64,000 nt of DNA from Mimachlamys varia (taxonomy: Eukaryota > Mollusca > Bivalvia > Pectinida > Pectinidae), in the NCBI GenBank assembly GCA_947623455.1, contig OX392543.1:19280757-19344756 (forward strand). Reading direction: 5' to 3'. The notes below the pieces were generated by a model. It was not told the origin of the DNA, searched no databases, and worked only from the letters and a program-made list of their open reading frames with translations. The position numbers and the translations under genes are program-made. Below are positions 1 through 48,626 of this stretch, one piece after another; position 1 is the first letter of the stretch, and each line of letters begins with the position of its first letter.

Positions 1-2279
1 TCTATAACCAAAAACCCGTGTCCAGTACCTAGGATCCTATAACCAGAAACCCGTACCCAGGACCATGTATTCTATAACCAGAAACCCTTACCCCGTACCA
101 AGTATTTTATAACCACAATTCGATACTCGGTACCTAGTATCCTATAACAAAAAAACCCGTGTCCGGTACCTAGGATCCAATAGCCAGAAACCCGTACCCG
201 GTACCTAATACCCTATAACCAAAAACCCGTACCCGGTAACAAGTATCGTTTAACAGGAAACCAGTACCCTGTACCTTGCATCCTATAACCAGAAAATCGT
301 ACCCAGAACCTAGCATCCTATAACAAGAAACCCGTACCCGGTACCAAGTATTCTTTAACTAGAAACCCTTACCCTGTACTTTGTATCCTATAACCAGAAA
401 CCAGTACCCGATAACAAGGATCCTTTAACAGGAAACTCGTACCCAGTACCATGTATTCTATAACCAAAAACCCGTGTCCAGTACCTAGGATCCTATAACC
501 AGAAACCCCTACCCTGTACCATGTATTCTATAACCAGAAACCCTTACCCCGTACCAAGTATTTTATAACCACAATTCGATACTCGGTACCTTGTATCCTA
601 TAACAAAAAAACCCGTGTCCGGTACCTAGGATCCTATAGCCAGAAACCCGTACCCGGTACCTTGTATCCTATAGCCAGAAACCCGTACCCGGTACCTTGT
701 ATCCTATAACCAGAAACCCGTGTCCGGTACAAAGTATTCTATAAACAGAACCCCTTACCCGATACCTTGTATCCTATAACCAGAAACTCGTTCCCAGTAC
801 CTAGTATCCTATAACCAAAAACCCGTGCCCGGTACCAAGGAACCTATAGCCAAAAACCCGTGTCCGGTACCTAGGATCCTATCGCCAGAAACCTGTACCC
901 GGTTTCTAGTATCCTATAACCAGAAACCGGTACCCGATAACAAGGATCCTTTAACAGGAAACCAGTACCTTGTACCTTGTATCCTATAACCAGAAATCCG
1001 TACCCGATATCTTGTATCCTTAACCAGAAACCCGTGTCCGGTACCAAATATTCTATAACTATAAACCCTTACCAGGTTTCCTATAACCATAAACCTGTAC
1101 TCGGTACCTTGTATCCTATAACCAGTAACCCGCACCTGGTACCTTGTATCCTATAACCAGAAACCCGTACCCGGGACCTTGTATCCTATAATCAAAAACC
1201 CGTGTCCGGTACCAAGGAGCGTATAGCCAGAAACCCGTACCCGGTACCTTGTATCCTATAACCAGAAACTCGAACCCAGTACCTAATATCCTATTACCAA
1301 AAACCCCTGTCCAGTACCTAGGATCCTATAGCCAGAAACCCGTACCCGGTTTCTAGTACCATATAACCAGAAACCCGTACCCGATAAAAAGGATCCTTTA
1401 ACCAAAAACCCGTACCCGGTATCTAGTATCATTAACCGAAAACCCATGTCCGGAACCAAGTATTCTATAACTAGAAACCCTTACCCGGTACCTTGTATCC
1501 TATTACCAGAAACCTGTACCCGGTACCAAGGATCCTATAACCAGAAATCCGTACCCAGTATCAAGTATCCTATAACCAGAAACCCGTACCCTGTACCTTG
1601 TATCCTATAACCAAAAACCCGTACCAGGTACCTTGTATCCTATAACCAGAAACCCGTACCCGGTTTCTAGTATCCTATAACAAGAAACCCGTACCCGGAA
1701 CCAATGATCCTATAACTAGAAACCCGTACCCTGTACCTTGTATCCTATAACCAAAAACCCGTACCAGGTACCTTGTATCCTATAACAAGAAACCCGTACC
1801 CGGAACCAATGATCCTATAACTAGAAACCCGTACCCTGTACCTTGTATCCTATAACCAGAAACCCGTACCCGATACCTTGTATCCTATAACCAGAAACCC
1901 GTACCCGGAACCAATGATCCTATAACTAGAAACCCGTACCCTGTACCTTGTATCCTATAACCAAAAACCCGTACCCGGTACCTAGGATCCTATAGCCAGA
2001 AACCCGTACCCGGTTTCTAGTATCCTATAACCAGAAACCCGTACCCGATACCTTGTATCCTATAACCAAAAACCCGTGTCTGGTACCTAGGATCCTATAG
2101 CCAGAAACCCGTACCCGGTTTCTAGTATCCTATAACCAGAAATCCGTACCCGATAACAAGGATCCTTTAACAGGAAACCCGTACCCTGTACCTTGTATCC
2201 TATAACCAGAAATCCGTACCCGATAACAAGGATTCTTTAACAGGAAACTCGTACCCAGTACCATGTATTCTTTAACTAA
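1..2279. repeat. 35-bp satellite, first (partly divergent) higher-order copy, left part
   Basis: Tandem monomers of about 35 bp, built from GGTACCTTGTATCC, TATAACCAGAAACCC and GTACCC, with variants such as AAGGATCC or AAGTATTC in place of TTGTATCC. Bases 1 to about 1590 match 3958 to about 5545 almost base for base. From there to 2279 the monomers are ordered differently: short blocks containing CCAATGATCC recur at about 1680-1930 and do not appear in the later copies. No gene is supported. The open frame at 914-1135 (minus) recurs with every higher-order copy and simply follows the repeat. Confidence 0.97.
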
Positions 2280-3022
2280 CAAGAGGCCCAATGGGGCTGC
2301 ATCGCTCACCTGGTATCAATCTCTGACTCATATTATAGTGTAACCCTAAAGTCCCCTAAAATCTTTTACTGTAAGACATTTAGAAGAACATGTTAAGATT
2401 TAAACATATTTTACCCCTGTGACCTTATAAGAAAACATTATTTTCATTTTCAAATTTTGTTTGGCTTCATCCCAGGATGCTACCAGCCAAATATCATGTC
2501 TCTAGGCATTTGGGTTTAACAGAAGAAGTCGCTCAAAGTTTTTAACCGATTTGACCACTGTGACCTTGAATATAGGTCAAGCTCATTTCTTTTCGCAAAC
2601 TTTGTTGAGCTTCATCCAAGGAACCTTTCAGCCAAAAATCATGCTTCTAGGGCTTTTGGTATTTCAAAAGAAATCGTTTAAAGGTTTTAACAGATTTAAC
2701 CTCACTGTGACCTTGAATATAAGTCTAGGTCATTTCTTTTCGCAAACTTTATTCGGCTTCATCCGAGGAAGCTACTGGTCAAATATGAGGTCTCTATGCC
2801 TGAGGGTATTTTAGAAGAAGTTGTTTGAAGGTTTCGACATTTTTGACCCCTGTGACTCCTTCCAAGTAAGCCACCAGCCAAATTTCATGTTACTAGGCCT
2901 TTCGGTATTTTAGAAAAAGTCGTTTAAAGGGAAAAGTTGACGGACGCAGGACGGACGGACGGACGGACGACGGACGCTGCACCATCACATTCAATGGGCG
3001 CCTCTTCTTCGGGCCAGGTGAG
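2280..3022. mobile_element. 743-bp interspersed repeat inserted in the satellite
   Basis: This non-satellite block is flanked on both sides by CTAA (2276-2279 and 3023-3026), a likely 4-bp target duplication; removing it with one CTAA restores a normal monomer context. It starts CAAGAGGCCCAATGG and ends GGCCAGGTGAG. The motif CTCACCTGG lies near the left end and, as its complement, at the right end. Inside are three to four diverged direct repeats of roughly 140 bp with shared phrases such as CTTCATCC, CCAGCCAAATATCATG, TGTGACCTTGAATATA and AAGTCGTTTAAAGG. A GGAC tetranucleotide tract lies at about 2942-2975. I recognise this architecture from bivalve interspersed repeats. It encodes nothing: the 87-codon frame at 2551-2814 runs across the internal repeats. 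The class (MITE or SINE-like) is not settled. Confidence 0.85.
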
Positions 3023-3957
3023 CTAAAAACCCTTACCCGGTACCTTGTATCCTATAACCAGAAACCCGTACCCGGTACCAAGGATCCTATAGCCAGAAAT
3101 CCGTACCCGGTACTTTGTATCCTATAACCAAAAACCTTTATCCGGTACCAAGGATCCTATAGCCAGAAACCCGTACCCGGTACTTTGTATCCTATAACCA
3201 GAAACTCGTACCCAGTACCTAGTATCCTATAACCAAAAACCTGTGTCCGGTACCAAGGATCCTATAGCCAGAAACCCGTACCCGGTACTTTGTATCCTAT
3301 AACCAGAAACTCGTACCCAGTACCTAGTATCCTATAACCAAAAACCCGTGTTCGGTAACAAGGATCCTATAGCCAGAAACCCATACCCGGTTTCTAGTAT
3401 CCTATAACCAGAAACCCGTACCCGATAACAAGGATCCTTTAACAGGAAACCAGTACCCTGTACCTTGTACCTATAACCAGAAAACCGTACCCGGTGTCTA
3501 GTATCCTTAACCAGAAACCCGTGTCCGGTACAAAGTATTCTATAGCCAGAAACCCTAACCCGATACCTTGTATCCTATAACCAGAAACTCGTTCCCAGTA
3601 CCTAGTATCATATAACCAAAAACCCGTGCCCGGTACCAAGGAACCAATAGCCAAAAACCCGTGTCCGGTAATTAGGATCCTATAGCCAGAAATCTGTACC
3701 CGGTTTCTAGTATCCTATAACCAGAAACCAGTACCCGATAACAAGGATCCTTTAACAGGAAACCCGTACCCTGTACCTTGTATCCTATAACCAGAAATCC
3801 GTACCCGATATCTAGTATCCTTAAGCAGAAACCCGTGTCCGGTACCAAGTATTCTTTAACTATAAACCCTTACCCTGTACTTTGTATCCTATAACCAGAA
3901 ACCAGTACTCGATAACAAGGATCCTTTAACAGGAAACTCGTACCCAGTACCATGTAT
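3023..3957. repeat. 35-bp satellite, first higher-order copy, right part
   Basis: The same 35-bp monomers resume after the inserted element. Bases 3023 to about 3440 are a local series with alternating AAGGATCC and TTGTATCC monomers not seen in the other copies. From about 3445 to 3957 the sequence matches 6945-7457 with few differences. This first copy therefore has both edges of the standard unit but a replaced centre. Confidence 0.95.
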
Positions 3958-6900
3958 TCTATAACCAAAAACCCGTGTCCAGTACCTAGGATCCTATAAC
4001 CAGAAACCCGTACCCAGGACCATGTATTCTATAACCAGAAACCCTTACCCCGTACCAAGTATTTTATAACCACAATTCGATACTCGGTACCTAGTATCCT
4101 ATAACAAAAAAACCCGTGTCCGGTACCTAGGATCCAATAGCCAGAAACCCGTACCCGGTACCTAATACCCTATAACCAAAAACCCGTACCCGGTAACAAG
4201 TATCGTTTAACAGGAAACCAGTACCCTGTACCTTGCATCCTATAACCAGAAAATCGTACCCAGAACCTAGCATCCTATAACAAGAAACCCGTACCCGGTA
4301 CCAAGTATTCTTTAACTAGAAACCCTTACCCTGTACTTTGTATCCTATAACCAGAAACCAGTACCCGATAACAAGGATCCTTTAACAGGAAACTCGTACC
4401 CAGTACCATGTATTCTATAACCAAAAACCCGTGTCCAGTACCTAGGATCCTATAACCAGAAACCCCTACCCTGTACCATGTATTCTATAACCAGAAACCC
4501 TTACCCCGTACCAAGTATTTTATAACCACAATTCGATACTCGGTACCTTGTATCCTATAACAAAAAAACCCGTGTCCGGTACCTAGGATCCTATAGCCAG
4601 AAACCCGTACCCGGTACCTTGTATCCTATAGCCAGAAACCCGTACCCGGTACCTTGTATCCTATAACCAGAAACCCGTGTCCGGTACAAAGTATTCTATA
4701 AACAGAACCCCTTACCCGATACCTTGTATCCTATAACCAGAAACTCGTTCCCAGTACCTAGTATCCTATAACCAAAAACCCGTGCCCGGTACCAAGGAAC
4801 CTATAGCCAAAAACCCGTGTCCGGTACCTAGGATCCTATCGCCAGAAACCTGTACCCGGTTTCTAGTATCCTATAACCAGAAACCGGTACCCGATAACAA
4901 GGATCCTTTAACAGGAAACCAGTACCTTGTACCTTGTATCCTATAACCAGAAATCCGTACCCGATATCTAGTATCCTTAACCAGAAACCCGTGTCCGGTA
5001 CCAAATATTCTATAACTATAAACCCTTACCAGGTTTCCTATAACCATAAACCTGTACTCGGTACCTTGTATCCTATAACCAGTAACCCGCACCTGGTACC
5101 TTGTATCCTATAACCAGAAACCCGTACCCGGGACCTTGTATCCTATAATCAAAAACCCGTGTCCGGTACCAAGGAGCGTATAGCCAGAAACCCGTACCCG
5201 GTACCTTGTATCCTATAACCAGAAACTCGAACCCAGTACCTAATATCCTATTACCAAAAACCCCTGTCCAGTACCTAGGATCCTATAGCCAGAAACCCGT
5301 ACCCGGTTTCTAGTACCATATAACCAGAAACCCGTACCCGATAAAAAGGATCCTTTAACCAAAAACCCGTACCCGGTATCTAGTATCATTAACCGAAAAC
5401 CCATGTCCGGAACCAAGTATTCTATAACTAGAAACCCTTACCCGGTACCTTGTATCCTATTACCAGAAACCTGTACCCGGTACCAAGGATCCTATAACCA
5501 GAAATCCGTACCCAGTATCAAGTATCCTATAACCAGAAACCCGTACCCGGTACCTTGTATCCTTTAACCAGAAACTCGTACCCGGTACATTGCATCCTGT
5601 AACTAGAAACTCTAACCCGGTACCAAGTATTTCATAACCAGAAACCGATTCCCGGTACCTTGCATCCTATAACAAGAAACTCTTGTCCGGTACAAAGGAT
5701 GCTATAACAAGAAACTCGTACCAGGTACCTTGTATTCTATAACTAGTAACCTGTACCCTGTACCTTGTATCCTATAACCAGAAACCCGTACTCGGTACCA
5801 AGGATCCTATAACCAGAAACCCGTACCCGGTACCACGGATCCTATCACCAGAAACCCGTACCCGGTACCTTGTATCTTATAACCAGATATTCGTACCCGG
5901 TACCTTGTATTATATAACAAAAAACCCTTTACCCGGGACTTTGTATCCTATAACCAGAAACCCGTACCCGGTACCTTGTATCCTATAACCAGACACGTAC
6001 CCGGTACTTTGTATACTATAACAAGAAACCCGTACCCTGTACCTTGTATCTTATAATCAGACACGTACCCGGTACTTTGTATTCTATAACCATAAACCCG
6101 TGTCCGGTACCAAGGATCCTATTGCCAGAAACCCGTACCCGGTTTCAAGTATCCTATAATCAGAAACCCGTACCCGATAACAAGGATCCTTTAACAGGAA
6201 ACTCGTACCCAGTACCTAGTATCCTATAACCAGAAATCCGTACCCGGTACCAAGTATTTCATAACCACAAACCGATACCCAGAATTTTGTATCCTTTTAC
6301 CAGAAACTCTAACCCGGTACCAAGTATTTCATAACTAGAAACCGATACTAGGTACCTTGCATCCTATAATCAGAAACCCTCACCCGTTACAATGTACCAA
6401 GTATTTCATAACCAGAAACAAGTACCCGGTACCTTGTATCATATAACCAGAAAACCGTACCCGGTACCATGTATTCTCTAACCAGAAACCCTTACCCAGT
6501 AATAAGTTATTCATTACTAGAAACCGATACCTGGTACCTTGCATCCTATAATCAGAAACCCTCAACCGGTACAATGTACCAAGTATTTCATAACCAGAAA
6601 CAAGTACCCGGTACCTTGTATCATATAACCTCAAACCCTTTCCCGATACCACGTATTTCATAACCAAAATCCGTACCCTGTACCTAGTATCCTATAACCA
6701 GAAACCCTGTCAGGTACAAAGGATGCTATAACAAGAAACTCGTACCAGGTACCAAGGATCCTATAACCAGAAACCCGTACCCGGAACCTTGTATCTTATA
6801 ACAAGATATCCGTAACCGGTACCTTGTATTCTATAACTAGAAACCCGTACCCTGTACCTTGTATCCTATAACCACAAAACAGTACCCGGTACCTTGTATC

Positions 6901-7457
6901 CTATAACCAGAAACCCGTACCCGGTACCTTGTATCTTATAACCAGATATCCGTACCCTGTACCTTGTATCCTATAGCCAGAAAACCGTACCCGGTGTCTA
7001 GTATCCTTAACCAGAAACCCGTGTCCGGTACAAAGTATTCTATAAACAGAAACCCTAACCCGATACCTTGTATCCTATAACCAGAAACTCGTTCCCAGTA
7101 CCTAGTATCCTATAACCAAAAACCCGTGCCCGGTACCAAGGAACCTATAGCCAAAAACCCGTGTCCGGTACCTAGGATCCTATAGCCAGAAACCTGTACC
7201 CGGTTTCTAGTATCCTATAACCAGAAACCAGTACCCGATAACAAGGATCCTTTAACAGGAAACCCGTACCCTGTACCTTGTATCCTATAACCAGAAATCC
7301 GTACCCGATATCTAGTATCCTTAAGCAGAAACCCGTGTCCGGTACCAAGTATTCTTTAACTATAAACCCTTACCCTGTACTTTGTATCCTATAACCAGAA
7401 ACCAGTACTCGATAACAAGGATCCTTTAACAGGAAACTCGTACCCAGTACCATGTAT
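3958..7457. repeat. Satellite higher-order repeat unit, copy 2 (3,500 bp)
   Basis: The unit starts at TCTATAACCAAAAACCCGTG and is 3,500 bp, exactly 100 times the 35-bp monomer length. Diagnostic variant monomers (for example TTTCCTATAACCATAAACC near 5035, and GTAATAAGTTATTCATTAC near 6500) recur at the same offset in the next two copies. Open frames of 61-95 codons on both strands recur at the same offsets, so they reflect the repeat and are not genes. Confidence 0.95.
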
Positions 7458-10400
7458 TCTATAACCAAAAACCCGTGTCCAGTACCTAGGATCCTATAAC
7501 CAGAAACCCGTACCCAGGACCATGTATTCAATAACCAGAAACCCTTACCCCGTACCAAGTATTTTATAACCACAATTCGATACTCGGTACCTAGTATCCT
7601 ATAACAAAAAAACCCGTGTCCGGTACCTAGGATCCAATAGCCAGAAACCCGTACCCGGTACCTAATACCCTATAACCAAAAACCCGTACCCGGTAACAAG
7701 TATCGTTTAACAGGAAACCAGTACCCTGTACCTTGCATCCTATAACCAGAAAATCGTACCCAGAACCTAGCATCCTATAACAAGAAACCCGTACCCGGTA
7801 CCAAGTATTCTTTAACTAGAAACCCTTACCCTGTACTTTGTATCCTATAACCAGAAACCAGTACCCGATAACAAGGATCCTTTAACAGGAAACTCGTACC
7901 CAGTACCATGTATTCTATAACCAAAAACCCGTGTCCAGTACCTAGGATCCTATAACCAGAAACCCCTACCCTGTACCATGTATTCTATAACCAGAAACCC
8001 TTACCCCGTACCAAGTATTTTATAACCACAATTCGATACTCGGTACCTTGTATCCTATAACAAAAAAACCCGTGTCCGGTACCTAGGATCCTATAGCCAG
8101 AAACCCGTACCCGGTACCTTGTATCCTATAGCCAGAAACCCGTACCCGGTACCTTGTATCCTATAACCAGAAACCCGTGTCCGGTACAAAGTATTCTATA
8201 AACAGAACCCCTTACCCGATACCTTGTATCCTATAACCAGAAACTCGTTCCCAGTACCTAGTATCCTATAACCAAAAACCCGTGCCCGGTACCAAGGAAC
8301 CTATAGCCAAAAACCCGTGTCCGGTACCTAGGATCCTATCGCCAGAAACCTGTACCCGGTTTCTAGTATCCTATAACCAGAAACCGGTACCCGATAACAA
8401 GGATCCTTTAACAGGAAACCAGTACCTTGTACCTTGTATCCTATAACCAGAAATCCGTACCCGATATCTAGTATCCTTAACCAGAAACCCGTGTCCGGTA
8501 CCAAATATTCTATAACTATAAACCCTTACCAGGTTTCCTATAACCATAAACCTGTACTCGGTACCTTGTATCCTATAACCAGTAACCCGCACCTGGTACC
8601 TTGTATCCTATAACCAGAAACCCGTACCCGGGACCTTGTATCCTATAATCAAAAACCCGTGTCCGGTACCAAGGAGCGTATAGCCAGAAACCCGTACCCG
8701 GTACCTTGTATCCTATAACCAGAAACTCGAACCCAGTACCTAATATCCTATTACCAAAAACCCCTGTCCAGTACCTAGGATCCTATAGCCAGAAACCCGT
8801 ACCCGGTTTCTAGTACCATATAACCAGAAACCCGTACCCGATAAAAAGGATCCTTTAACCAAAAACCCGTACCCGGTATCTAGTATCATTAACCGAAAAC
8901 CCATGTCCGGAACCAAGTATTCTATAACTAGAAACCCTTACCCGGTACCTTGTATCCTATTACCAGAAACCTGTACCCGGTACCAAGGATCCTATAACCA
9001 GAAATCCGTACCCAGTATCAAGTATCCTATAACCAGAAACCCGTACCCGGTACCTTGTATCCTTTAACCAGAAACTCGTACCCGGTACATTGCATCCTGT
9101 AACTAGAAACTCTAACCCGGTACCAAGTATTTCATAACCAGAAACCGATTCCCGGTACCTTGCATCCTATAACAAGAAACTCTTGTCCGGTACAAAGGAT
9201 GCTATAACAAGAAACTCGTACCAGGTACCTTGTATTCTATAACTAGTAACCTGTACCCTGTACCTTGTATCCTATAACCAGAAACCCGTACTCGGTACCA
9301 AGGATCCTATAACCAGAAACCCGTACCCGGTACCACGGATCCTATCACCAGAAACCCGTACCCGGTACCTTGTATCTTATAACCAGATATTCGTACCCGG
9401 TACCTTGTATTATATAACAAAAAACCCTTTACCCGGGACTTTGTATCCTATAACCAGAAACCCGTACCCGGTACCTTGTATCCTATAACCAGACACGTAC
9501 CCGGTACTTTGTATACTATAACAAGAAACCCGTACCCTGTACCTTGTATCTTATAATCAGACACGTACCCGGTACTTTGTATTCTATAACCATAAACCCG
9601 TGTCCGGTACCAAGGATCCTATTGCCAGAAACCCGTACCCGGTTTCAAGTATCCTATAATCAGAAACCCGTACCCGATAACAAGGATCCTTTAACAGGAA
9701 ACTCGTACCCAGTACCTAGTATCCTATAACCAGAAATCCGTACCCGGTACCAAGTATTTCATAACCACAAACCGATACCCAGAATTTTGTATCCTTTTAC
9801 CAGAAACTCTAACCCGGTACCAAGTATTTCATAACTAGAAACCGATACTAGGTACCTTGCATCCTATAATCAGAAACCCTCACCCGTTACAATGTACCAA
9901 GTATTTCATAACCAGAAACAAGTACCCGGTACCTTGTATCATATAACCAGAAAACCGTACCCGGTACCCTGTATTCTCTAACCAGAAACCCTTACCCAGT
10001 AATAAGTTATTCATTACTAGAAACCGATACCTGGTACCTTGCATCCTATAATCAGAAACCCTCAACCGGTACAATGTACCAAGTATTTCATAACCAGAAA
10101 CAAGTACCCGGTACCTTGTATCATATAACCTCAAACCCTTTCCCGATACCACGTATTTCATAACCAAAATCCGTACCCTGTACCTAGTATCCTATAACCA
10201 GAAACCCGTGTCAGGTACAAAGGATGCTATAACAAGAAACTCGTACCAGGTACCAAGGATCCTATAACCAGAAACCCGTACCCGGAACCTTGTATCTTAT
10301 AACAAGATATCCGTAACCGGTACCTTGTATTCTATAACTAGAAACCCGTACCCTGTACCTTGTATCCTATAACCACAAAACAGTACCCGGTACCTTGTAT

Positions 10401-10958
10401 CCTATAACCAGAAACCCGTACCCGGTACCTTGTATCTTATAACCAGATATCCGTACCCTGTACCTTGTATCCTATAGCCAGAAAACCGTACCCGGTGTCT
10501 AGTATCCTTAACCAGAAACCCGTGTCCGGTACAAAGTATTCTATAAACAGAAACCCTAACCCGATACCTTGTATCCTATAACCAGAAACTCGTTCCCAGT
10601 ACCTAGTATCCTATAACCAAAAACCCGTGCCCGGTACCAAGGAACCTATAGCCAAAAACCCGTGTCCGGTACCTAGGATCCTATAGCCAGAAACCTGTAC
10701 CCGGTTTCTAGTATCCTATAACCAGAAACCAGTACCCGATAACAAGGATCCTTTAACAGGAAACCCGTACCCTGTACCTTGTATCCTATAACCAGAAATC
10801 CGTACCCGATATCTAGTATCCTTAAGCAGAAACCCGTGTCCGGTACCAAGTATTCTTTAACTATAAACCCTTACCCTGTACTTTGTATCCTATAACCAGA
10901 AACCAGTACCCGATAACAAGGATCCTTTAACAGGAAACTCGTACCCAGTACCATGTAT
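7458..10958. repeat. Satellite higher-order repeat unit, copy 3 (3,501 bp)
   Basis: This copy is nearly identical to 3958-7457. Differences noticed by eye are single changes, such as CCATGT to CCCTGT near 9968 and a one-base gain near 10208 (CCCGTG where copy 2 has CCTG). Such low divergence over 3.5 kb implies recent amplification or homogenisation. Confidence 0.95.
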
Positions 10959-13900
10959 TCTATAACCAAAAACCCGTGTCCAGTACCTAGGATCCTATAA
11001 CCAGAAACCCGTACCCAGGACCATGTATTCTATAACCAGAAACCCTTACCCCGTACCAAGTATTTTATAACCACAATTCGATACTCGGTACCTAGTATCC
11101 TATAACAAAAAAACCCGTGTCCGGTACCTAGGATCCAATAGCCAGAAACCCGTACCCGGTACCTAATACCCTATAACCAAAAACCCGTACCCGGTAACAA
11201 GTATCGTTTAACAGGAAACCAGTACCCTGTACCTTGCATCCTATAACCAGAAAATCGTACCCAGAACCTAGCATCCTATAACAAGAAACCCGTACCCGGT
11301 ACCAAGTATTCTTTAACTAGAAACCCTTACCCTGTACTTTGTATCCTATAACCAGAAACCAGTACCCGATAACAAGGATCCTTTAACAGGAAACTCGTAC
11401 CCAGTACCATGTATTCTATAACCAAAAACCCGTGTCCAGTACCTAGGATCCTATAACCAGAAACCCCTACCCTGTACCATGTATTCTATAACCAGAAACC
11501 CTTACCCCGTACCAAGTATTTTATAACCACAATTCGATACTCGGTACCTTGTATCCTATAACAAAAAAAACCCGTGTCCGGTACCTAGGATCCTATAGCC
11601 AGAAACCCGTACCCGGTACCTTGTATCCTATAGCCAGAAACCCGTACCCGGTACCTTGTATCCTATAACCAGAAACCCGTGTCCGGTACAAAGTATTCTA
11701 TAAACAGAACCCCTTACCCGATACCTTGTATCCTATAACCAGAAACTCGTTCCCAGTACCTAGTATCCTATAACCAAAAACCCGTGCCCGGTACCAAGGA
11801 ACCTATAGCCAAAAACCCGTGTCCGGTACCTAGGATCCTATCGCCAGAAACCTGTACCCGGTTTCTAGTATCCTATAACCAGAAACCGGTACCCGATAAC
11901 AAGGATCCTTTAACAGGAAACCAGTACCTTGTACCTTGTATCCTATAACCAGAAATCCGTACCCGATATCTAGTATCCTTAACCAGAAACCCGTGTCCGG
12001 TACCAAATATTCTATAACTATAAACCCTTACCAGGTTTCCTATAACCATAAACCTGTACTCGGTACCTTGTATCCTATAACCAGTAACCCGCACCTGGTA
12101 CCTTGTATCCTATAACCAGAAACCCGTACCCGGGACCTTGTATCCTATAATCAAAAACCCGTGTCCGGTACCAAGGAGCGTATAGCCAGAAACCCGTACC
12201 CGGTACCTTGTATCCTATAACCAGAAACTCGAACCCAGTACCTAATATCCTATTACCAAAAACCCCTGTCCAGTACCTAGGATCCTATAGCCAGAAACCC
12301 GTACCCGGTTTCTAGTACCATATAACCAGAAACCCGTACCCGATAAAAAGGATCCTTTAACCAAAAACCCGTACCCGGTATCTAGTATCATTAACCGAAA
12401 ACCCATGTCCGGAACCAAGTATTCTATAACTAGAAACCCTTACCCGGTACCTTGTATCCTATTACCAGAAACCTGTACCCGGTACCAAGGATCCTATAAC
12501 CAGAAATCCGTACCCAGTATCAAGTATCCTATAACCAGAAACCCGTACCCGGTACCTTGTATCCTTTAACCAGAAACTCGTACCCGGTACATTGCATCCT
12601 GTAACTAGAAACTCTAACCCGGTACCAAGTATTTCATAACCAGAAACCGATTCCCGGTACCTTGCATCCTATAACAAGAAACTCTTGTCCGGTACAAAGG
12701 ATGCTATAACAAGAAACTCGTACCAGGTACCTTGTATTCTATAACTAGTAACCTGTACCCTGTACCTTGTATCCTATAACCAGAAACCCGTACTCGGTAC
12801 CAAGGATCCTATAACCAGAAACCCGTACCCGGTACCACGGATCCTATCACCAGAAACCCGTACCCGGTACCTTGTATCTTATAACCAGATATTCGTACCC
12901 GGTACCTTGTATTATATAACAAAAAACCCTTTACCCGGGACTTTGTATCCTATAACCAGAAACCCGTACCCGGTACCTTGTATCCTATAACCAGACACGT
13001 ACCCGGTACTTTGTATACTATAACAAGAAACCCGTACCCTGTACCTTGTATCTTATAATCAGACACGTACCCGGTACTTTGTATTCTATAACCATAAACC
13101 CGTGTCCGGTACCAAGGATCCTATTGCCAGAAACCCGTACCCGGTTTCAAGTATCCTATAATCAGAAACCCGTACCCGATAACAAGGATCCTTTAACAGG
13201 AAACTCGTACCCAGTACCTAGTATCCTATAACCAGAAATCCGTACCCGGTACCAAGTATTTCATAACCACAAACCGATACCCAGAATTTTGTATCCTTTT
13301 ACCAGAAACTCTAACCCGGTACCAAGTATTTCATAACTAGAAACCGATACTAGGTACCTTGCATCCTATAATCAGAAACCCTCACCCGTTACAATGTACC
13401 AAGTATTTCATAACCAGAAACAAGTACCCGGTACCTTGTATCATATAACCAGAAAACCGTACCCGGTACCATGTATTCTCTAACCAGAAACCCTTACCCA
13501 GTAATAAGTTATTCATTACTAGAAACCGATACCTGGTACCTTGCATCCTATAATCAGAAACCCTCAACCGGTACAATGTACCAAGTATTTCATAACCAGA
13601 AACAAGTACCCGGTACCTTGTATCATATAACCTCAAACCCTTTCCCGATACCACGTATTTCATAACCAAAATCCGTACCCTGTACCTAGTATCCTATAAC
13701 CAGAAACCCGTGTCAGGTACAAAGGATGCTATAACAAGAAACTCGTACCAGGTACCAAGGATCCTATAACCAGAAACCCGTACCCGGAACCTTGTATCTT
13801 ATAACAAGATATCCGTAACCGGTACCTTGTATTCTATAACTAGAAACCCGTACCCTGTACCTTGTATCCTATAACCACAAAACAGTACCCGGTACCTTGT

Positions 13901-14460
13901 ATCCTATAACCAGAAACCCGTACCCGGTACCTTGTATCTTATAACCAGATATCCGTACCCTGTACCTTGTATCCTATAGCCAGAAAACCGTACCCGGTGT
14001 CTAGTATCCTTAACCAGAAACCCGTGTCCGGTACAAAGTATTCTATAAACAGAAACCCTAACCCGATACCTTGTATCCTATAACCAGAAACTCGTTCCCA
14101 GTACCTAGTATCCTATAACCAAAAACCCGTGCCCGGTACCAAGGAACCTATAGCCAAAAACCCGTGTCCGGTACCTAGGATCCTATAGCCAGAAACCTGT
14201 ACCCGGTTTCTAGTATCCTATAACCAGAAACCAGTACCCGATAACAAGGATCCTTTAACAGGAAACCCGTACCCTGTACCTTGTATCCTATAACCAGAAA
14301 TCCGTACCCGATATCTAGTATCCTTAAGCAGAAACCCGTGTCCGGTACCAAGTATTCTTTAACTATAAACCCTTACCCTGTACTTTGTATCCTATAACCA
14401 GAAACCAGTACCCGATAACAAGGATCCTTTAACAGGAAACTCGTACCCAGTACCATGTAT
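10959..14460. repeat. Satellite higher-order repeat unit, copy 4 (3,502 bp)
   Basis: This copy is near-identical to the two preceding ones. A one-base gain in an A-run near 11563 accounts for part of the length difference. The same diagnostic monomers and the same repeat-borne open frames recur at the expected offsets. Confidence 0.95.
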
Positions 14461-17390
14461 TCTATAACCAAAAACCCGTGTCCAGTACCTAGGATCCTAT
14501 AACCAGAAACCCGTACCCAGGACCATGTATTCTATAACCAGAAACCCTTACCCCGTACCAAGTATTTTATAACCACAATTCGATACTCGGTACCTAGTAT
14601 CCTATAACAAAAAAACCCGTGTCCGGTACCTAGGATCCAATAGCCAGAAACCCGTACCCGGTACCTAATACCCTATAACCAAAAACCCGTACCCGGTAAC
14701 AAGTATCGTTTAACAGGAAACCAGTACCCTGTACCTTGCATCCTATAACCAGAAAATCGTACCCAGAACCTAGCATCCTATAACAAGAAACCCGTACCCG
14801 GTACCAAGTATTCTTTAACTAGAAACCCTTACCCTGTACTTTGTATCCTATAACCAGAAACCAGTACCCGATAACAAGGATCCTTTAACAGGAAACTCGT
14901 ACCCAGTACCATGTATTCTATAACCAAAAACCCGTGTCCAGTACCTAGGATCCTATAACCAGAAACCCGTACCCTGTACCATGTATTCTATAACCAGAAA
15001 CCCTTACCCCGTACCAAGTATTTTATAACCACAATTCGATACTCGGTACCTTGTATCCTATAACAAAAAAACCCGTGTCCGGTACCTAGGATCCTATAGC
15101 CAGAAACCCGTACCCGGGACCTTGTATCCTATAGCCAGAAACCCGTACCCGGTACCTTGTATCCTATAACCAGAAACCCGTGTCCGGTACAAAGTATTCT
15201 ATAAACAGAACCCCTTACCCGATACCTTGTATCCTATAACCAGAAACTCGTTCCCAGTACCTAGTATCCTATAACCAAAAACCCGTGCCCGGTACCAAGG
15301 AACCTATAGCCAAAAACCCGTGTCCGGTACCTAGGATCCTATCGCCAGAAACCTGTACCCGGTTTCTAGTATCCTATAACCAGAAACCGGTACCCGATAA
15401 CAAGGATCCTTTAACAGGAAACCAGTACCTTGTACCTTGTATCCTATAACCAGAAATCCGTACCCGATATCTAGTATCCTTAACCAGAAACCCGTGTCCG
15501 GTACCAAATATTCTATAACTATAAACCCTTACCAGGTTTCCTATAACCATAAACCTGTACTCGGTACCTTGTATCCTATAACCAGTAACCCGCACCTGGT
15601 ACCTTGTATCCTATAACCAGAAACCCGTACCCGGGACCTTGTATCCTATAATCAAAAACCCGTGTCCGGTACCAAGGAGCGTATAGCCAGAAACCCGTAC
15701 CCGGTACCTTGTATCCTATAACCAGAAACTCGAACCCAGTACCTAATATCCTATTACCAAAAACCCCTGTCCAGTACCTAGGATCCTATAGCCAGAAACC
15801 CGTACCCGGTTTCTAGTATCATATAACCAGAAACCCGTACCCGATAAAAAGGATCCTTTAACCAAAAACCCGTACCCGGTATCTAGTATCATTAACAAAA
15901 AACCCATGTCCGGAACCAAGTATTCTATAACTAGAAACCCTTACCCGGTACCTTGTATCCTATTACCAGAAACCTGTACCCGGTACCAAGGATCCTATAA
16001 CCAGAAATCCGTACCCAGTATCAAGTATCCTATAACCAGAAACCCGTACCCGGTACCTTGTATCCTTTAACCAGAAACTCGTACCCGGTACATTGCATCC
16101 TGTAACTAGAAACTCTAACCCGGTACCAAGTATTTCATAACCAGAAACCGATTCCCGGTACCTTGCATCCTATAACAAGAAACTCTTGTCCGGTACAAAG
16201 GATGCTATAACAAGAAACTCGTACCAGGTACCTTGTATTCTATAACTAGTAACCTGTACCCTGTACCTTGTATCCTATAACCAGAAAACCGTACTCGGTA
16301 CCTAGGATCCTATAACCAGAAACCCGTACCCGGTACCACGGATCCTATCACCAGAAACCCGTACCCGGTACCTTGTATCTTATAACCAGATATTCGTACC
16401 CGGTACCTTGTATTATATAACAAGAAACCCTTTACCCGGGACTTTGTATCCTATAACCAGAAACCCGTACCCGGTACCTTGTATCCTATAACCAGACACG
16501 TACCCGGTACTTTGTATACTATAACAAGAAACCCGTACCCTGCCCCTTGTATCTTCTATAACCATAAACCCGTGTCCGGTACCAAGGATCCTATGGCCAG
16601 AAACCCGTACCCGGTTTCAAGTATCCTATAATCAGAAACCCGTACCCGATAACAAGGATCCTTTAACAGGAAACTCGTACCCAGTACCTAGTATCCTATA
16701 ACCAGAAATCCGTACCCGGTACCAAGTATTTCATAACCACAAACCGATACCCAGAATTTTGTATCCTATTTCCAGAAACTCTAACCCGGTACCAAGTATT
16801 TCATAACTAGAAACCGATACTAGGTACCTTGCATCCTATAATCAGAAACCCTCACCCGTTACAATGTACCAAGTATTTCATAACCAGAAACAAGTACCCG
16901 GTACCTTGTATCATATAACCAGAAAACCGTACCCGGTACCATGTATTCTATAACCAGAAACCCTTACCCAGTAATAAGTAATTCATTACTAGAAACCGAT
17001 ACCTGGTACCTTGCATCCTATAATCAGAAACCGTCAACCGGTACAATGTACCAAGTATTTCATAACCAGAAACAAGTACCCGGTACCTTGTATCATACAA
17101 CCTCAAACCCTTTCCCGATACCACGTATTTCATAACCAAAATCCGTACCCTATACCTAGTATCCTATAACCAGAAACCCGTGTCCGGTACAAAGGATGCT
17201 ATAACAAGAAACTCGTACCAGGTACCAAGGATCCTATAACCAGAAACCCGTACCCGGAACCTTGTATCTTATAACCAGATATCCGTAACCGGTACCTTGT
17301 ATTCTATAACTAGAAACCCGTACCCTGTACCTTGTATGCTATAACCACAAAACAGTACCCGGTACCTTGTATCTTATAACCAGATATCCG
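14461..17390. repeat. Satellite higher-order repeat unit, copy 5, diverged and truncated
   Basis: It begins like the other copies but collects more changes (for example TAGTATCATATAACC near 15823 where the others have TAGTACCATATAACC). About one monomer is missing near 16545, where the TTATAATCAGACACG segment is absent. Homology to the 3.5-kb unit ends near 17.35-17.4 kb. The last part, about 16.9-17.4 kb, also matches 24.28-24.75 kb and 35.22-35.70 kb, so it is the junction between the two organisational domains of the array. The end coordinate is approximate. Confidence 0.85.
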
Positions 17391-20300
17391 TACCCGGTAC
17401 CTTGTATTCTATAACAAGAAACTCGTACCCGGTACCAAGGATCCTATAACCAGAAACCCGTACCCGGTACATAGTATCTTATAACAAGAAACTTAAACCC
17501 GGTATCTAGTGTCTTATAACCAGAAACCCGTATCCGGTACCTTGCATCCTATAACTGGAAACCCGTACCTGGTACCAATTATTCTATAACCAGAAACCAC
17601 ACCAGGTACCAAGGATCCTATAAATAGAAACCCGTACCAGGTAACTTGTATCCTTTAACCAGAAATCCGTACCCGGTATCTAGTATCCTATAACCAGAAA
17701 CTCGTACCCACTATCTAGTTACCTATAACCAGAAACCCGTGTCCGGTACCAAGTATTCTATAACCAGAAACCCGTACCCGGTACCTTGTATCTTATAAAC
17801 AAAAACCCGTGTCCGGTACCAAGTATTCTATAACCAGAAACCCGTACCCGGTACCTTGTATCCTATAACCAGAAACTCGTACCCAGTATCTAGAAACCTA
17901 TAACCAGAAACCCGTACCCGGTACCTTGTATCCTATAACCAGAAACCCGTACCCGTTACCTTGAATCCTATAACAAGAAACCCGTTCCCGGTACTTTGTA
18001 TCCTATAACCAGAAACCCGTACCCAGTACTTTGTATGCTACAACCAGAACCCCGTACCCGGAACCAAGGATCCTATAGCCAAAAACCCGTACCCGGTACC
18101 TTGTACTCTATAACCAGAAACACGTACCCGATAACAAGGATCCTATAACCAGAAACTCGTACCCGGTACCAAGTATTTCATAACAAGAAACCCTTACCCG
18201 ACACCTTGTATCATATAACAAGAAACCAGTACCCAGTACCAAGGATCCTATAACCAGAAACCCGTCCCCAGTACCTTGTTTCCTATAACCAGAAACCCGT
18301 ATCCGGTATCTAGTATCCTATAACCAGAAACCCGTACCAGGTACCTTGTATCATATATTTAGAAACACGTATCCGGTAACTTGTGTCCTATAACCAGAAT
18401 TACGTACCCGGTACTTTGTATCCTATTACCAGAAACCTGTATCCGTTACCTTGTATCCTATCACCAGAAACCCGTACCCGGATCCTAGTATCCTGCAACC
18501 AGAAATCCGTACCCGGTACCATGTATTCTATAACCAGAAACCCTTACCCGGTACCAAGTATTTCATAACTAGAAACCGATACCTGGTACCTTGCATCCTA
18601 TAATCAGAAACCCTCACCCGGTACAATGTACCAAGTATTTCATAACCAGAAACCCTTACCCGGTACCACGTATTTCATAACCAGAAATCCGTACCCTGTA
18701 CCTAGTATCCTATAACCAGAAACCCGTGTCCAGTACAAAGGATGCTATAACAAGAAACCCGTACCAGGTACCAAGGATCCTATAACCAGAAACCCGTACC
18801 CGGAACCTTGTATCTTATAACCAGATATCCGTAACCGGTACCTTGTATTATATAACAAGAAACCTTTTACCCGGTACTTTGTATCCTACAACCAGAAACC
18901 CTTACCAGGTACCAAGTATTCTATAACCAGAAACCTTTACCCGGTACCTTGTATCCTATAACCAGAAACCCTTACAAGGTACCAAGGATACTATAACCAG
19001 AAACCCGTACCCGGTACCTTGTATCCTATAACCAGAAACACGTACCCGGTACCAAGGATCCTATAACAAAAAACCCGTACCCGGTACCAAGTATTCTATA
19101 ACCAGAAACCTTTACCCGGTACCTTGTATCCTATAACCAGAAACCCGTACCCGTTACTTTGAATCATCAAACCAGAAACCCGTTCCCGGTACTTTGTATC
19201 CTACAACCAGAACCCCGTTCCAGGTACCAAGGATCCTATAGCCAAAAACCCGTACCCGGTACCAAGTATTTCATAACAAGAAACCCTTACCCGACACCTT
19301 GTATCATATAACCAGAAACCAGTACCCAGTACCGTGGACCCTATAACCAGAAACCCGTACCCAGTACATTGTAGCCTATAACCAGAAACCCGTCTCCGGT
19401 ATCTTGTATCCTATAACCAGTAACCCGTAGCCGGTACTATGGATCCTATAACCAGAAACCCTTTACCCGGTACCAAGGATCCTATAACCAGAAACCCGTA
19501 CCCGGTACCTTGTATCTTATAACCAGATATCCGTAACCGGTACCTTGTATTCTATTACAAGAAATCCTTTACCCTGGACTTTGTATCCTATAGCCAGAAA
19601 CCCGTACCCGGTACCTTGTATCCTATAACCAGAAACCCGTACCCGTTACCTTGAATCCTATAACCAGAAACTCGTTCCCGGTGCTTTGTATCCTATAACC
19701 AGAAACCCGTACCCGGTACCTTTTATCCTATAACCAGAAACCCGTACCCGGTACATAGTATCTTATAACAAGAAACTTAAACCCGGTATCTAGTGTCCTA
19801 TAACAAGAAACCCGTACCCGGTACCTTTTATCCTATAACCAGAAACTCGTACCTGGTTCCAAGTATTCTATAACCAGAAACCCACAGCAGGTACCAAGGA
19901 TCCTATAAATAGAAACCCGTACCAGGTAACTTGTATAATTTAACCAGAAATCCGTACCCTGTATCTAGTATCCTATAACCAGAAACTCGTACCCACTATC
20001 TACTTACCTATAACCAGAAACCCGTACCCGGTACTTTGTATCCTATACCCAGAAACCCGTACCCGGTACTTTGTATCCTACAACTAGAACCCCATACCCG
20101 GTACCAAGGATCCTATAGCCAGAAACCCGTACCCGGTACCTTGTATCCTATAACCAGAAACACGTACCCAATAACAAGGATCCTATAACCAGAAACCCGT
20201 ACCCGGTACCAAGTATTTCATAACAAGAAACCCTTACCCGACACCTTGTATCATCTAACCAAAAACCCGTACCCAGTACCTTGTATCCTATAACCGGAAA

Positions 20301-23300
20301 CCCGTATCCGGTATCTGGTATCCTATAACCAGAAACCTGTACCCGGTACCTTGTATCATATAACTAGAAACTCGTATCCGGTAACTTGTGTCCTATAACC
20401 AGAATTACGTACCCGGTACTTTTTATCCTATTACCAGAAACCTGTATCCGTTACCTTGTATCCTATCACCAGAAACCCGTACCCGGATCCTAGTATCCTG
20501 AAACCAGAAATCCGTACCCGGTACCTTGTATCCTATAACCAGAAACCCTTACCCGGTACCAAGTATTTCATAACTAGAAACCGATACCTGGTACCTTGCA
20601 TCCTATAATCAGAAACCATCACCCGGTACAATGTACCAAGTATTTCATGACCAGAAACAAGTACCCGGTACCTTGTATCATATAACCAGAAACCCTTACC
20701 CGGTACCACGTATTTCATAACAAGAAATCCGTACCCTGTACCTAGTATCCTATAACAAGAAACCCGTGTTCGGTACAAAGGATGCTATAACAAGAAACTC
20801 GTAACCGTTACCTTGTATTCTATAGCCAGAAACCTTTACCCATTCTATAACCAGAAACCTTTACCCGGTACCTTGTATCCTATAACCAGAAACCCTTACC
20901 AGGTACCAAGGATCCTATAACCAGAAATCCGTATCCGGTACCTTGTATCCTATAACAAAAAACTCGTACCCGGTAACAAGTATCCTATAACCAGAAACCT
21001 GTTCCCGATACTTTGTATCCTACAACCAGAACCCCGTACCCGGTACCAAGGATACTATAGCCAGAAACCCGTACCCGGTAACAAGTATTTCATAACAAAA
21101 ATCCCTTACCCGACACCTTGTATCATATAACCAGAAACCAGTACCCAGTACCAAGGACCCTATAACCAGAAACCCGTACCCAGTACCTTGTATCCTATAA
21201 CCAGAAACCCGTCTCCGGTATCTAGTATCCTATAAACAGTAACCAGTACCCGGTACCAAGGATCCTATAACCAGAAACCCGTACCCGGTACCTTGTATCT
21301 TATAACCAGATATCCGTAACCGGTACCTTGTATTCTATTACAAGAAATCCTTTACCCGGGACTTTGTATCCTATAACCAGAAACTCGTACCCGGTACCAA
21401 GTATTCTATAACCGGAAACCCTTATCAGGTACCAAGTATCCTATAACCAGAAACCCGTACCCGGTACCTTGTATCCTATAACCAGAAACCCGTACCCGTT
21501 ACCTTGAATCCTATAACCAGAAACTCGTTCCCGATACTTTGTATACTATAACCAGAATCCCGTACCCGGTACGTTGTATCCTATAACCAGAAACCCGTAC
21601 CCGTTACCTTGTATCCTATAACCAGAAACCCGTACCCGTTACCTTGAATCCTATAACCAGAAACTCGTTCCCGGTACTCTGTATCCTATAACCAGAAACC
21701 CGTACCCGGTACCTTGTATCCTATAACCAGAAACCCGTACCCGGTACATAGTATCTTATAACAAGAAACTTAAACCCGGTATCTAGTGTCCTATAACAAG
21801 AAACCCGTACCCGGTACCTTTTATCCTATAACCAGAAACCCGTACCTGTATCCAAGTATTCTATAACCAGAAACCCACACCAGGTACCAAGGATCCTATA
21901 AATAGAAACCCGTACCAGGTAACTTGTATAATTTAACCAGAAATCCGTACCCTGTATCTAGTATCCTATAACCAGAAACTCGTACCCACTATCTAGTTAC
22001 CTATAACCAGAAACCCGTACCCGGTACTTTGTATCCTATAACCAGAAACCCGTACCCGGTACCTTGTATCATATAACTAGAAACTCGTATCCGGTAACTT
22101 GTGTCCTATAACCAGAATTACGTACCCGGTACTTTTTATCCTATTACCAGAAACCTGTATCCGTTACCTTGTATCCTATCACCAGAAACCCGTACCCGGA
22201 TCCTAGTATCCTGAAACCAGAAATCCGTACCCGGTACCTTGTATCCTATAACCAGAAACTCTTACCCGGTACCAAGTATTTCATAACTAGAAACCGATAC
22301 CTGGTACCTTGCATCCTATAATCAGAAACCATCACCCGGTACAATGTACCAAGTATTTCATGACCAGAAACAAGTACCCGGTACCTTGTATCATATAACC
22401 AGAAACCCTTACCCGGTACCACGTATTTCATAACAAGAAATCCGTACCCTGTACCTAGTATCCTATAACAAGAAACCCGTGTTCGGTACAAAGGATGCTA
22501 TAACAAGAAACTCGTAACCGGTACCTTGTATTCTATAGCCAGAAACCTTTACCCATTCTATAACCAGAAACCTTTACCCGGTACCTTGTATCCTATAACC
22601 AGAAACCCTTACCAGGTACCAAGGATCCTATAACCAGAAATCCGTATCCGGTACCTTGTATCCTATAACAAAAAACTCGTACCCGGTAACAAGTATCCTA
22701 TAACCAGAAACCTGTTCCCGATACTTTGTATCCTACAACCAGAACCCCGTACCCGGTACCAAGGATACTATAGCCAGAAACCCGTACCCGGTAACAAGTA
22801 TTTCATAACAAAAATCCCTTACCCGACACCTTGTATCATATAACCAGAAACCAGTACCCAGTACCAAGGACCCTATAACCAGAAACCCGTACCCAGTACC
22901 TTGTATCCTATAACCAGAAACCCGTCTCCGGTATCTAGTATCCTATAAACAGTAACCAGTACCCGGTACCAAGGATCCTATAACCAGAAACCCGTACCCG
23001 GTACCTTGTATCTTATAACCAGATATCCGTAACCGGTACCTTGTATTCTATTACAAGAAATCCTTTACCCGGGACTTTGTATCCTATAACCAGAAACTCG
23101 TACCCGGTACCAAGTATTCTATAACCGGAAACCCTTATCAGGTACCAAGTATCCTATAACCAGAAACCCGTACCCGGTACCTTGTATCCTATAACCAGAA
23201 ACCCGTACCCGTTACCTTGAATCCTATAACCAGAAACTCGTTCCCGATACTTTGTATACTATAACCAGAATCCCGTACCCGGTACGTTGTATCCTATAAC

Positions 23301-26300
23301 CAGAAACCCGTACCCGTTACCTTGTATCCTATAACCAGAAACCCGTACCCGTTACCTTGAATCCTATAACCAGAAACTCGTTCCCGGTACTCTGTATCCT
23401 ATAACCAGAAACCCGTACCCGGTACCTTGTATCCTATAACCAGAAACCCGTACCCGGTACATAGTATCTTATAACAAGAAACTTAAACCCGGTATCTAGT
23501 GTCCTATAACAAGAAACCCGTACCCGGTACCTTTTATCCTATAACCAGAAACCCGTACCTGGTTCCAAGTATTCTATAACCAGAAACCCACACCAGGTAC
23601 CAAGGATCCTATAAATAGAAACCCGTACCAGGTAACTTGTATAATTTAACCAGAAATCCGTACCCTGTATCTAGTATCCTATAACCAGAAACTCGTACCC
23701 ACTATCTAGTTACCTATAACCAGAAACCCGTACCCGGTACTTTGTATCCTATAACCAGAAACCCGTACCCGGTACTTTGTATCCTACAACCAGAACCCTA
23801 TACCCGGTACCAAGGATCCTATAGCCAGAAACCCGTACCCGGTACCTTGTATCCTATAACCAGAAACACGTACCCAATAACAAGGATCCTATAACCAGAA
23901 ACCCGTACCCGGTACCAAGTATTTCATAACAAGAAACCCTTACCCGACACCTTGTATCATATAACCAAAAACCCGTACCCAGTACCTTGTATCCTATAAC
24001 CGGAAACCCGTATCCGGTATCTAGTATCATATAACTAGAAACTCGTATCCGGTAACTTGTGTCCTATAACCAGAATTACGTACCCGGTACTTTTTATCCT
24101 ATTACCAGAAACCTGTATCCGTTACCTTGTATCCTATCAACAGAAATCCGTACCCGGATCCTAGTATCCTATAACCAGAAATCCGTACCCGGTACCGTGT
24201 ATTCTATAACCAGAAACCCTTACCCGGTACCAAATATTTCATAACTAGAAACCGATACCCGGTACCTTGTATCATATAACCAGAAAACCGTACCCGGTAC
24301 CATGTATTCTATAACCAGAAACCCTTACCAGTAATAAGTAATTCATTACTAGAAACCGATACCTGGTACCTTGCATCCTATAATCAGAAACCCTCAACCG
24401 GTACAATGTACCAAGTATTTCATAACCAGAAACAAGTACCCGGTACCTTGTATCATATAACCTCAAACACTTTCCCGATACCAAGTATTTCATAACCAAA
24501 ATCCGTACCCTGTACCTAGTATCCTATAACCAGAAACCCGTGTCCGGTACAAAGGATGCTATAACAAGAAACTCGTACCAGGTACCAAGGATCCTATAAC
24601 CAGAAACCCGTACCCGGAACCTTGTATCTTATAACCAGATATCCGTAACCGGTACCTTGTATTCTATAACTAGAAACCCGTACCCTGTACCTTGTATGCT
24701 ATAACCACAAAACAGTACCCGGTACCTTGTATCTTATAACCAGATATCCGTACCCGGTACATTGTATTCTATAACAAGAAACTCGTACCCGGTACCAAGG
24801 ATCCTATAACAAGAAACTCGTACCCGGTACCAAGGATCCTATAACCAGAAACCCGTACCCGGTACATAGTATCTTATAACAAGAAACTTAAACCCGGTAT
24901 CAAGTGTCTTATAACCAGAAACCCGTATCCGGTACCTTGCATCCTATGACTAGAAACCCGTACCTGGTACCAATTATTCTATAACCAGAAACCACACCAG
25001 GTACCAAGGATCCTATAAATAGAAACCCGTACCAGGTAACTTGTATCCTTTAACCAGAAATCCGTACCCGGTATCTAGTATCCTATAACCAGAAACTCGT
25101 ACCCACTATCTAGTTACCTATAACCAGAAACCCGTGTCCGGTACCAAGTATTCTATAACCAGAAACCCGTACCCGGTACCTTGTATCTTATAAACAAAAA
25201 CCCGTGTCCGGTACCAAGTATTCTATAACCAGAAACCCGTACCCGGTACCTTGTATCCTATAACCAGAAACTCGTACCCAGTATCTAGAAACCTATAACC
25301 AGAAACCCGTACCCGGTACCTTGTATCCTATAACCAGAAACCCGTACCCGTTACCTTGAATCCTATAACAAGAAACCCGTTCCCGGTACTTTGTATCCTA
25401 TAACCAGAAACCCGTACCCGGTACTTTGTATGCTACAACCAGAACCCCGTACCCGGAACCAAGGATCCTATAGCTAAAAACCCGTACCCGGTACCTTGTA
25501 CTCTATAACCAGAAACACGTACCCGATAACAAGGATCCTATAACCAGAAACTCGTACCCGGTACCAAGTATTTCATAACAAGAAACCCTTACCCGACACC
25601 TTGTATCATATAACAAGAAACCAGTACCCAGTACCAAGGATCCTATAACCAGAAACCCGTCCCCAGTACCTTGTTTCCTTTAACCAGAAACCCGTATCCG
25701 GTATCTAGTATCCTATAACCAGAAACCCGTACCCGGTACCTTGCATCATATATTTAGAAACACGTATCCGGTAACTTGTGTCCTATAACCAGAATTACGT
25801 ATCCGGTACTTTGTATCCTATTACCAGAAACCTGTATCCGTTACCTTGTATCCTATCACCAGAAACCCGTACCCGGTACCATGTATTCTATAACCAGAAA
25901 CCCTTACCCGGTACCAAGTATTTCATAACTAGAAACCGATACCTGGTACCTTGCATCCTATAATCAGAAACCCTCACCCGGTACAATGTACCAAGTATTT
26001 CATAACCAGAAACAAGTACCCGGTACCACGTATTTCATAACCAGAAATCCGTACCCTGTACCTAGTATCCTATAACCAGAAAACCGTGTCCGGTACAAAG
26101 GATGCTATAACAAGAAACCCGTACCAGGTACCAAGGATCCTATAACCAGAAACCCGTACCCGGAACCTTGTATCTTATTACCAGATATCCGTAACCGGTA
26201 CCTTGTATTATATAACAAGAAACCCTTTACCCGGTACTTTGTATCCTACAACCAGAAACCCGTACCCGGTACCAATGATCCTATAACCAGAAACCTTTAC

Positions 26301-43306: not shown

Positions 43307-43308
43307 TA

Positions 43309-44169: not shown

Positions 44170-44171
44170 TA

Positions 44172-44372
44172 GTTTCCTGTAATCAGAAACTCGTACCCAG
44201 TACATTGTATCCTATAACCAGAAACCCGTACCCGGTACCAAGGATCGTATTACCAGAAACTCGTACCCGGTACCTGGTATCCTATAACTAGAAACACGAA
44301 CCCTATATATAGTATCCTATAACCAGTAAGCCGTACCCGGTACCAAGGATCTTATAACTAAACACCCGTACA
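44172..44372. repeat. Degenerate terminal monomers of the 35-bp satellite
   Basis: Five to six decayed monomers continue directly from the sequence left of the inverted-repeat element, so the array originally ended here and not at 43.3 kb. Decay is visible as TATATATAGTATCC, CAGTAAGCCG and AAACACCCG variants. Satellite similarity stops at about 44372. Confidence 0.9.
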
Positions 44373-44376
44373 GGTA

Positions 44377-47610: not shown

Positions 47611-47612
47611 TA

Positions 47613-48624: not shown

Positions 48625-48626
48625 TA

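Follow-up and report, generated by a model that had tools for sequence, protein, structure and literature searches.

How a satellite DNA starts, and how a repeat unit of 100 members can be built from a monomer of only 35 bp, are questions raised by a stretch of 64,000 nucleotides (below, the window) near the middle of chromosome 17 of the bivalve Mimachlamys varia (C17:19,280,757-19,344,756), most of which is occupied by a tandem array of a 35-bp satellite. The chromosome is 41,658,273 bp long, given as 41.66 Mb in the table of the M. varia genome note (PMC11252643), and the genome searched comprised 71 contigs with a total of 975,302,275 bases, slightly short of the published assembly (975,381,475 bp in 82 scaffolds; PMC11252643).

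By the usual criteria the locus is a higher-order-repeat (HOR) satellite: the array runs head-to-tail, its units are tandem and hold whole numbers of monomers, and divergence is low between units and high within them. Pairs of identical 30-mers within positions 1-43,400 showed offset peaks at 3502, 3500 and 3501, and cyclic alignment to the monomer consensus placed exactly 100 monomers in each of the three canonical units, 84, 85 and 85 of them being 35 bp long and the remainder 28-42 bp. That the unit length comes to 100 x 35 bp is partly luck, since the 15-16 odd-length monomers per unit cancel out. Any two of the three units are separated by 1-3 substitutions and 1-2 gap columns. Homologous monomers of different units are 0.9989-0.9994 identical, while pairs of monomers within a unit are on average 0.76 identical (standard deviation 0.08). 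A first-pass annotation, made from the letters alone, had read landmark intervals of 3,500, 3,501 and 3,502 bp as 100 x 35 bp and had claimed near-identical central copies built of diverged monomers, and both readings agree with the counts in the three adjacent units and with the identities of 0.999 between and 0.76 within units. The tandem-repeat analysis that it proposed (Tandem Repeats Finder, TRF, and 30-mer offsets) returned the 35-bp period and the peaks at about 3.5 kb, and the outcome that would have spoken against it, monomers as similar within a unit as between units, was not obtained (0.76 versus 0.999). The same identities support its proposal that kilobase-scale amplification took place recently, on top of a monomer layer that is older and diverged. 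Other parts required correction. From its five recurrences, the three central units are clean, but the first is a variant unit of 3,957 bp and the fifth is incomplete; the landmark at position 1 is merely the first base of the window, with the array start 5.1 kb further left; and the satellite, implied to span 1..17390, continues to 43,308 and then from 44,172 to 44,371.

A further level of repetition lies below 35 bp. The monomer consists of five degenerate heptads (CCCGTAC, CCGGTAC, CTAGTAT, CCTATAA and CCAGAAA), and its consensus is identical to itself at 21/35 positions at lag 7 and at 20/35 at lag 14; a fraction of 0.00015 of 20,000 shuffles reached 21/35 at any of the lags 1-17. The autocorrelation of the array is 0.47-0.50 at lags 7, 14, 21 and 28 and about 0.15-0.24 at lags not beside multiples of seven. 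The repeat hierarchy has three levels, of 7, 35 and 3,500 bp. Monomers of 42 and 28 bp are what gain or loss of a single heptad would give, but they sit at corresponding places and may trace to single events. A coding repeat was rejected, because no start-to-stop open reading frame (ORF) of at least 120 aa is listed in the window part of the array (frames running off the ends fall outside the listing) and the 35-bp period is not divisible by three. Stop-to-stop frames of up to 127 aa in the left part of the array (L009) and of up to 248 aa in a 14-bp array (L014) count against this rejection; these long frames were taken as chance openness of the repeat. Single-strand structure was also rejected, as a stretch of four monomers (plus strand, DNA) showed no folding advantage over shuffled sequence (z 0.43). 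Most likely the array yields no product and is a tandem block that evolves locally.

The whole array of about 49.5 kb lies at one locus, from a left start about 5.1 kb outside the window to a right end at 44,371 (Table 1). TRF reported it at 2-43291 with 1,235 copies and a score of 41,893, and cyclic alignment to the TRF consensus resolved 1,220 monomers in 1-44,372 with two inserts excluded, 1,104 of them of 35 bp. No minus-strand or inverted self matches were found within 1-43308. The array changes along its length: the 3.5-kb domain passes into a mosaic of duplications, and this into an edge where higher-order structure is slight. Among the self matches listed (at least 350 bp and at least 95% identity), duplications from 17,468 to about 41 kb have 95-99% identity at many different offsets; for example, 26665-29452 equals 38097-40884 and 20256-22070 equals 21969-23783, both at 99.0%. 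The final 900 bp or so of the fifth unit are 97% identical to the unit, and part of them also matches the mosaic domain at 98.6%. On the other side, a second insert-bearing copy, incomplete, lies leftward at a lag of 3957-3958; it starts near -2,500 and is repeated to about 1,600. Counted from the insert start, 759/760 bases agree between the two insert copies, which indicates that the element inserted first and was then duplicated with the unit. The dispersed element itself, of about 750 bp, may resemble the common interspersed repeats of molluscs.

Table 1. Features of the satellite locus (window coordinates)
Feature	Position	Strand	Remarks
35-bp satellite array	1..43308	+	All head-to-tail; consensus CTATAACCAGAAACCCGTACCCGGTACCTAGTATC; left end at L009:4877, window coordinate about -5123
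Insert-bearing variant unit	1..3957	+	1-1653 and 3453-3957 match the canonical unit, middle replaced
Dispersed element of ~750 bp in the variant unit	2278..3026	.	Duplicated along with the unit
Canonical higher-order unit, 100 monomers	3958..7457	+	3,500 bp
Canonical higher-order unit, 100 monomers	7458..10958	+	3,501 bp
Canonical higher-order unit, 100 monomers	10959..14460	+	3,502 bp
Truncated fifth unit	14461..17468	+	31-bp deletion; leaves the unit at ~17,468
Mosaic domain of overlapping long-range duplications	17469..41000	+	Self-BLAST; boundaries approximate
Right edge of 35-bp monomers, higher-order structure slight	41001..43308	+	Boundary approximate
Miniature inverted-repeat transposable element (MITE) inserted in the array	43309..44169	.	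Terminal inverted repeats CAGACCCGTACACGTT...; TA target-site duplication
Rest of the 35-bp array past the MITE	44172..44371	+	TRF 44170-44371, 5.8 copies

Relatives of the satellite are dispersed in the genome. A search with a 401-bp piece of the array, whose counts are lower bounds, gave at least 55 matches, 30 of them on chromosome 17 (C17) around the array and the others on C6, C3, C19, C14 (two places), C16, C12 and C2; heptad arrays related to the C17 satellite are thus present on seven other chromosomes. All 12 segments tested (two from C17; four further short matches lie outside the set) have a lag-7 signal of 0.40-0.58 and the same C-rich strand. The derived periods vary: 14 bp and its multiples at C3 and C12, 35 bp (about 16 monomers) and 50 bp at C6, and mixed periods including 84 bp in the arrays of C19, C14 and C2. 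The heptad words vary as well. C17 has CTATAAC and mainly CGGTACC, while the C3 and C12 arrays, and those of the retroelement described below, have CTGTACC and little or no CGGTACC; C6 is intermediate, sharing CTATAAC with C17 and CTGTACC with the retroelement and the 14-bp arrays. A search with a satellite 22-mer gave 0 matches in viral_contigs and 0 in genome_contigs, and no published description of this 35-bp satellite was found among the titles and abstract openings searched. Beside the short 35-bp array of C6, a frame appears to encode successive C2H2 zinc fingers (L011:7642-9102).

On C19, C14, C16 and C2, a heptad block, a region of about 1.4 kb and the reading frames of a long interspersed nuclear element (LINE) follow one another on the C-rich strand. 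The 1.4-kb region is 90-97% identical to the C14 copy, with C2 keeping pieces only, and the LINE frames of the C19 copy match Exo_endo_phos (EEP) and RVT_1; the heptads lie about 1.4 kb before the endonuclease/reverse transcriptase (RT) frame, on the sense strand. A search with most of the 1.4-kb region gave 19 matches, and the upstream side was viewed at seven. Heptads lie directly upstream in all six copies that reach the start of the region (C14:4.2, C19:28.3, C16:34.7, C2:64.6, C16:15.2 and C17:11.4 Mb) and not in the one that starts at its position 122 (C19:33.7 Mb). An ORF1-like frame stands immediately before the heptads at three loci (C14:4.2, C16:34.7 and C14:23.9 Mb); on C6 the 50-bp heptad array has a remnant of it, 75% identical, on the upstream side. 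The position of this frame before the heptads in two of the six copies makes the block internal to the LINE, and a location of the heptads at the LINE 5' end was ruled out by this shared side upstream in the longest copies; the other four copies showed no ORF1-like side within the sequence around each. The block is short in two copies, about 250 bp at C16:15.2 and about 800 bp at C17:11.4, as 5' truncation inside it would produce. At C14:4.2 (L016:2706-4304) a fragment of another RT element, with an RVT_1 match, splits the heptads, and the C19 copy is continuous there.

The likeness extends to whole monomers. 35-mers identical to the C17 consensus at 31/35 positions were found in three of the four LINE arrays searched (C14, C19 and C16), at C14 and C19 as two in tandem; the best match is 32/35 at C6, 30/35 at C14:23.9 and 18-20/35 in non-heptad DNA, and shuffling the order of heptads in the C14 array gave a maximum of 26/35 in 300 trials. 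As expected if a satellite is derived from a transposable element (TE), there is an element with tandem repeats homologous to the monomer.

The explanation that we consider the probable one, with considerable reserve, is that the satellite was seeded by heptads of a LINE, expanded as a 35-bp repeat and was duplicated in register, with no coding content found in it. In this sequence of events, LINE-type heptads would seed the satellite, one 35-bp phase would expand monomer by monomer and be left to diverge, long stretches would then be duplicated in register by unequal sister-chromatid exchange or break-induced replication, and the final duplications would proceed in 3.5-kb steps. The order from the LINE through C6 to C17 would be the simplest reading of the heptad words. 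In-register exchange predicts whole numbers of monomers per unit despite 15-16 odd-length monomers, and local duplication predicts that insert-bearing units are adjacent to each other and insert-free units likewise, as they are. A number of observations weigh against this explanation. The exchange mechanism is one that we infer from structure alone. Four of the six heptad-bearing LINE copies were found via their heptads, so the independent ones are two, C16:15.2 and C17:11.4 Mb, whose best 35-mers reach 27/35 and 28/35; in the fourth LINE array (C2) the best 35-mer has 28/35 or 29/35 in two comparisons, and the free 14-bp arrays of C3 and C12 reach 27/35, not far below 31. The upstream LINE frame is only tentatively ORF1, its Pfam matches (coiled-coil and others) all being below cutoff, and C14:23.9 has this frame and heptads with no match to the 1.4-kb region. 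Remains of a source element, also expected of a TE-derived satellite, were not found at the array border: the window, L009 and L010 (flanks) contain no EEP/RT frame matches, and neither the 1.4-kb region nor the ORF1 side has a match in the window, L009, L010 or L022-L024. LINE seeding in place is consequently not established. In the ORF listings of the 14-bp arrays of C3 and C12 no LINE frame appears, and these arrays have no ORF1-side match; heptads thus occur outside the LINE too.

The last two points also bear on the opposite direction of transfer, in which heptad satellite arrays are the older and one of them supplied the LINE family with its internal block: the arrays of C3 and C12, which bear no trace of the LINE, and the lack of one at the C17 array speak for it. 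The C17 array itself, however, looks derived, with CTATAAC and CGGTACC against the CTGTACC of the LINE, C3 and C12 arrays, and the LINE arrays are heterogeneous mixtures, not pieces of one satellite, which leaves this direction somewhat unlikely. As to the 3.5-kb step, rolling-circle copying of an excised circle followed by re-insertion might replace unequal exchange, since three near-identical whole-number units in a row are also expected from re-insertion of a concatemer. We consider this doubtful: the variant units are grouped, insert-bearing at the left end and deleted at the right, and the domain grades into the mosaic, so local exchange suffices with no circle. That the number of units is an artefact of assembly, by false duplication or collapse, is very unlikely. 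Differences of 1-3 substitutions between units are near what an assembler can confuse, and the DNA was sheared to an average of 12-20 kb according to the genome note (PMC11252643); but the assembly quality value given there is 64.4 (PMC11252643), the domain is enclosed by the insert and the 31-bp deletion within about 13.5 kb, a distance that a single read can cover, and independent duplications are present in the mosaic domain.

The first-pass annotation had also suggested a centromeric or other heterochromatic block. A position near the chromosome middle (19.28 of 41.66 Mb) and flanks with at least 34.9 kb of a satellite of about 1.2-kb spacing and with a 55-bp satellite are compatible with the array belonging to the functional centromere of the chromosome. 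We nevertheless regard this as improbable, as the array has just about 49.5 kb, only short relatives were found on other chromosomes in the searches with lower-bound counts, and exons of immunoglobulin domains lie about 10 kb away. Large arrays of a family on most chromosomes, a feature of centromeric satellites though not required of every centromere, were not found; there is one large locus, on C17. A satellite-rich stretch near the chromosome middle might still keep a pericentromeric reading alive. In a broader scheme, to which we attach little probability, a LINE with internal heptads seeds loci genome-wide, and the C17 seed with its two neighbouring satellites makes up functional pericentromeric chromatin; if true, the internal repeats of a retrotransposon would become DNA of chromosome structure. 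All 34.9 kb analysed in the left flank are 99% self-covered by an unrelated tandem repeat with spacings of about 1,220, 1,024 and 685 bp, which looks like a separate higher-order pattern. This repeat (L023, L022, L010 and L009:1-4877) abuts the 35-bp array, and its spacings recur in order. In the right flank, within 27 kb of the array, the 55-bp satellite (L024:7073-10000) has 53.6 copies with 88% matches and runs off the sequence end.

The class of satellite is known, and human DYZ1, deer satellite I and alpha-satellite cascades follow the same logic. DYZ1 (HSat3A6) has a 3.6-kb unit in a satellite that likely began as CATTC pentamers (PMC4022460). It resembles the present array in having a kilobase unit of very short repeat origin and differs in its megabase size, its Y-chromosome location and its pentamer in place of a heptad and a 35-mer; LINE-linked relatives are not mentioned in the part of PMC4022460 cited here. 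Cervid satellite I likewise packs a short subrepeat into a longer unit, with 31-bp subrepeats within monomers of 0.8-1 kb (PMC7288315), but it is centromeric and family-wide, and three clones of about 0.72 kb have 20-21 detected subrepeats versus 100 here. In alpha-satellite, which has a 171-bp monomer (PMC4585704) and is centromeric, the largest primate unit reported is the orangutan 59-mer (PMC11276891), and a cascading HOR diverges by 22.4% within and 0.1% between units (PMC11276891), compared with 24% and 0.1% here. The rarity claimed for the unit on first inspection holds in that 100 members exceed 59, while DYZ1 and deer satellite I are precedents. A LINE origin also has parallels: LINE untranslated regions are among the established TE sources of satellites (PMC12628747), and the central repeats of oyster Helentrons are tandem repeats inside a mobile element that serve as a satellite source (PMC7492417). 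Tandem repeats borne inside a mobile element are common to these cases and to ours, which differs in the internal position of the LINE heptad block and in a large array with no carrier beside it. Growth of higher-order units from subrepeats was discussed for a scallop satellite (PMC5874043). What is new is a hierarchy of 7, 35 and 3,500 bp with 100-member units, together with the LINE-borne heptads as a candidate seed. At this cleanly assembled locus three scales of amplification can be read, its dispersed short relatives suggest where the first repeats came from, and a 100-member unit can evidently arise with no monomer of the 171-bp type. The question of how a satellite starts becomes testable through comparison of pectinid genomes.

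To the right of the array, transposon-like fragments and immunoglobulin-type exons are found, the latter on the minus strand at 54089-54514 and 56688-57188, about 10-13 kb from it. The frames at 46045-46895 resemble Penelope-type reverse transcriptase but gave no Pfam match. No known RNA family reached the gathering score in 44372-64000. The MITE at 43309 was ruled out as a carrier of the array, as it is an insertion into it with a TA duplication. A second copy of this MITE lies at 47613-48624; it is 94% identical apart from gaps and has 11-bp internal repeats and a TA duplication of its own.

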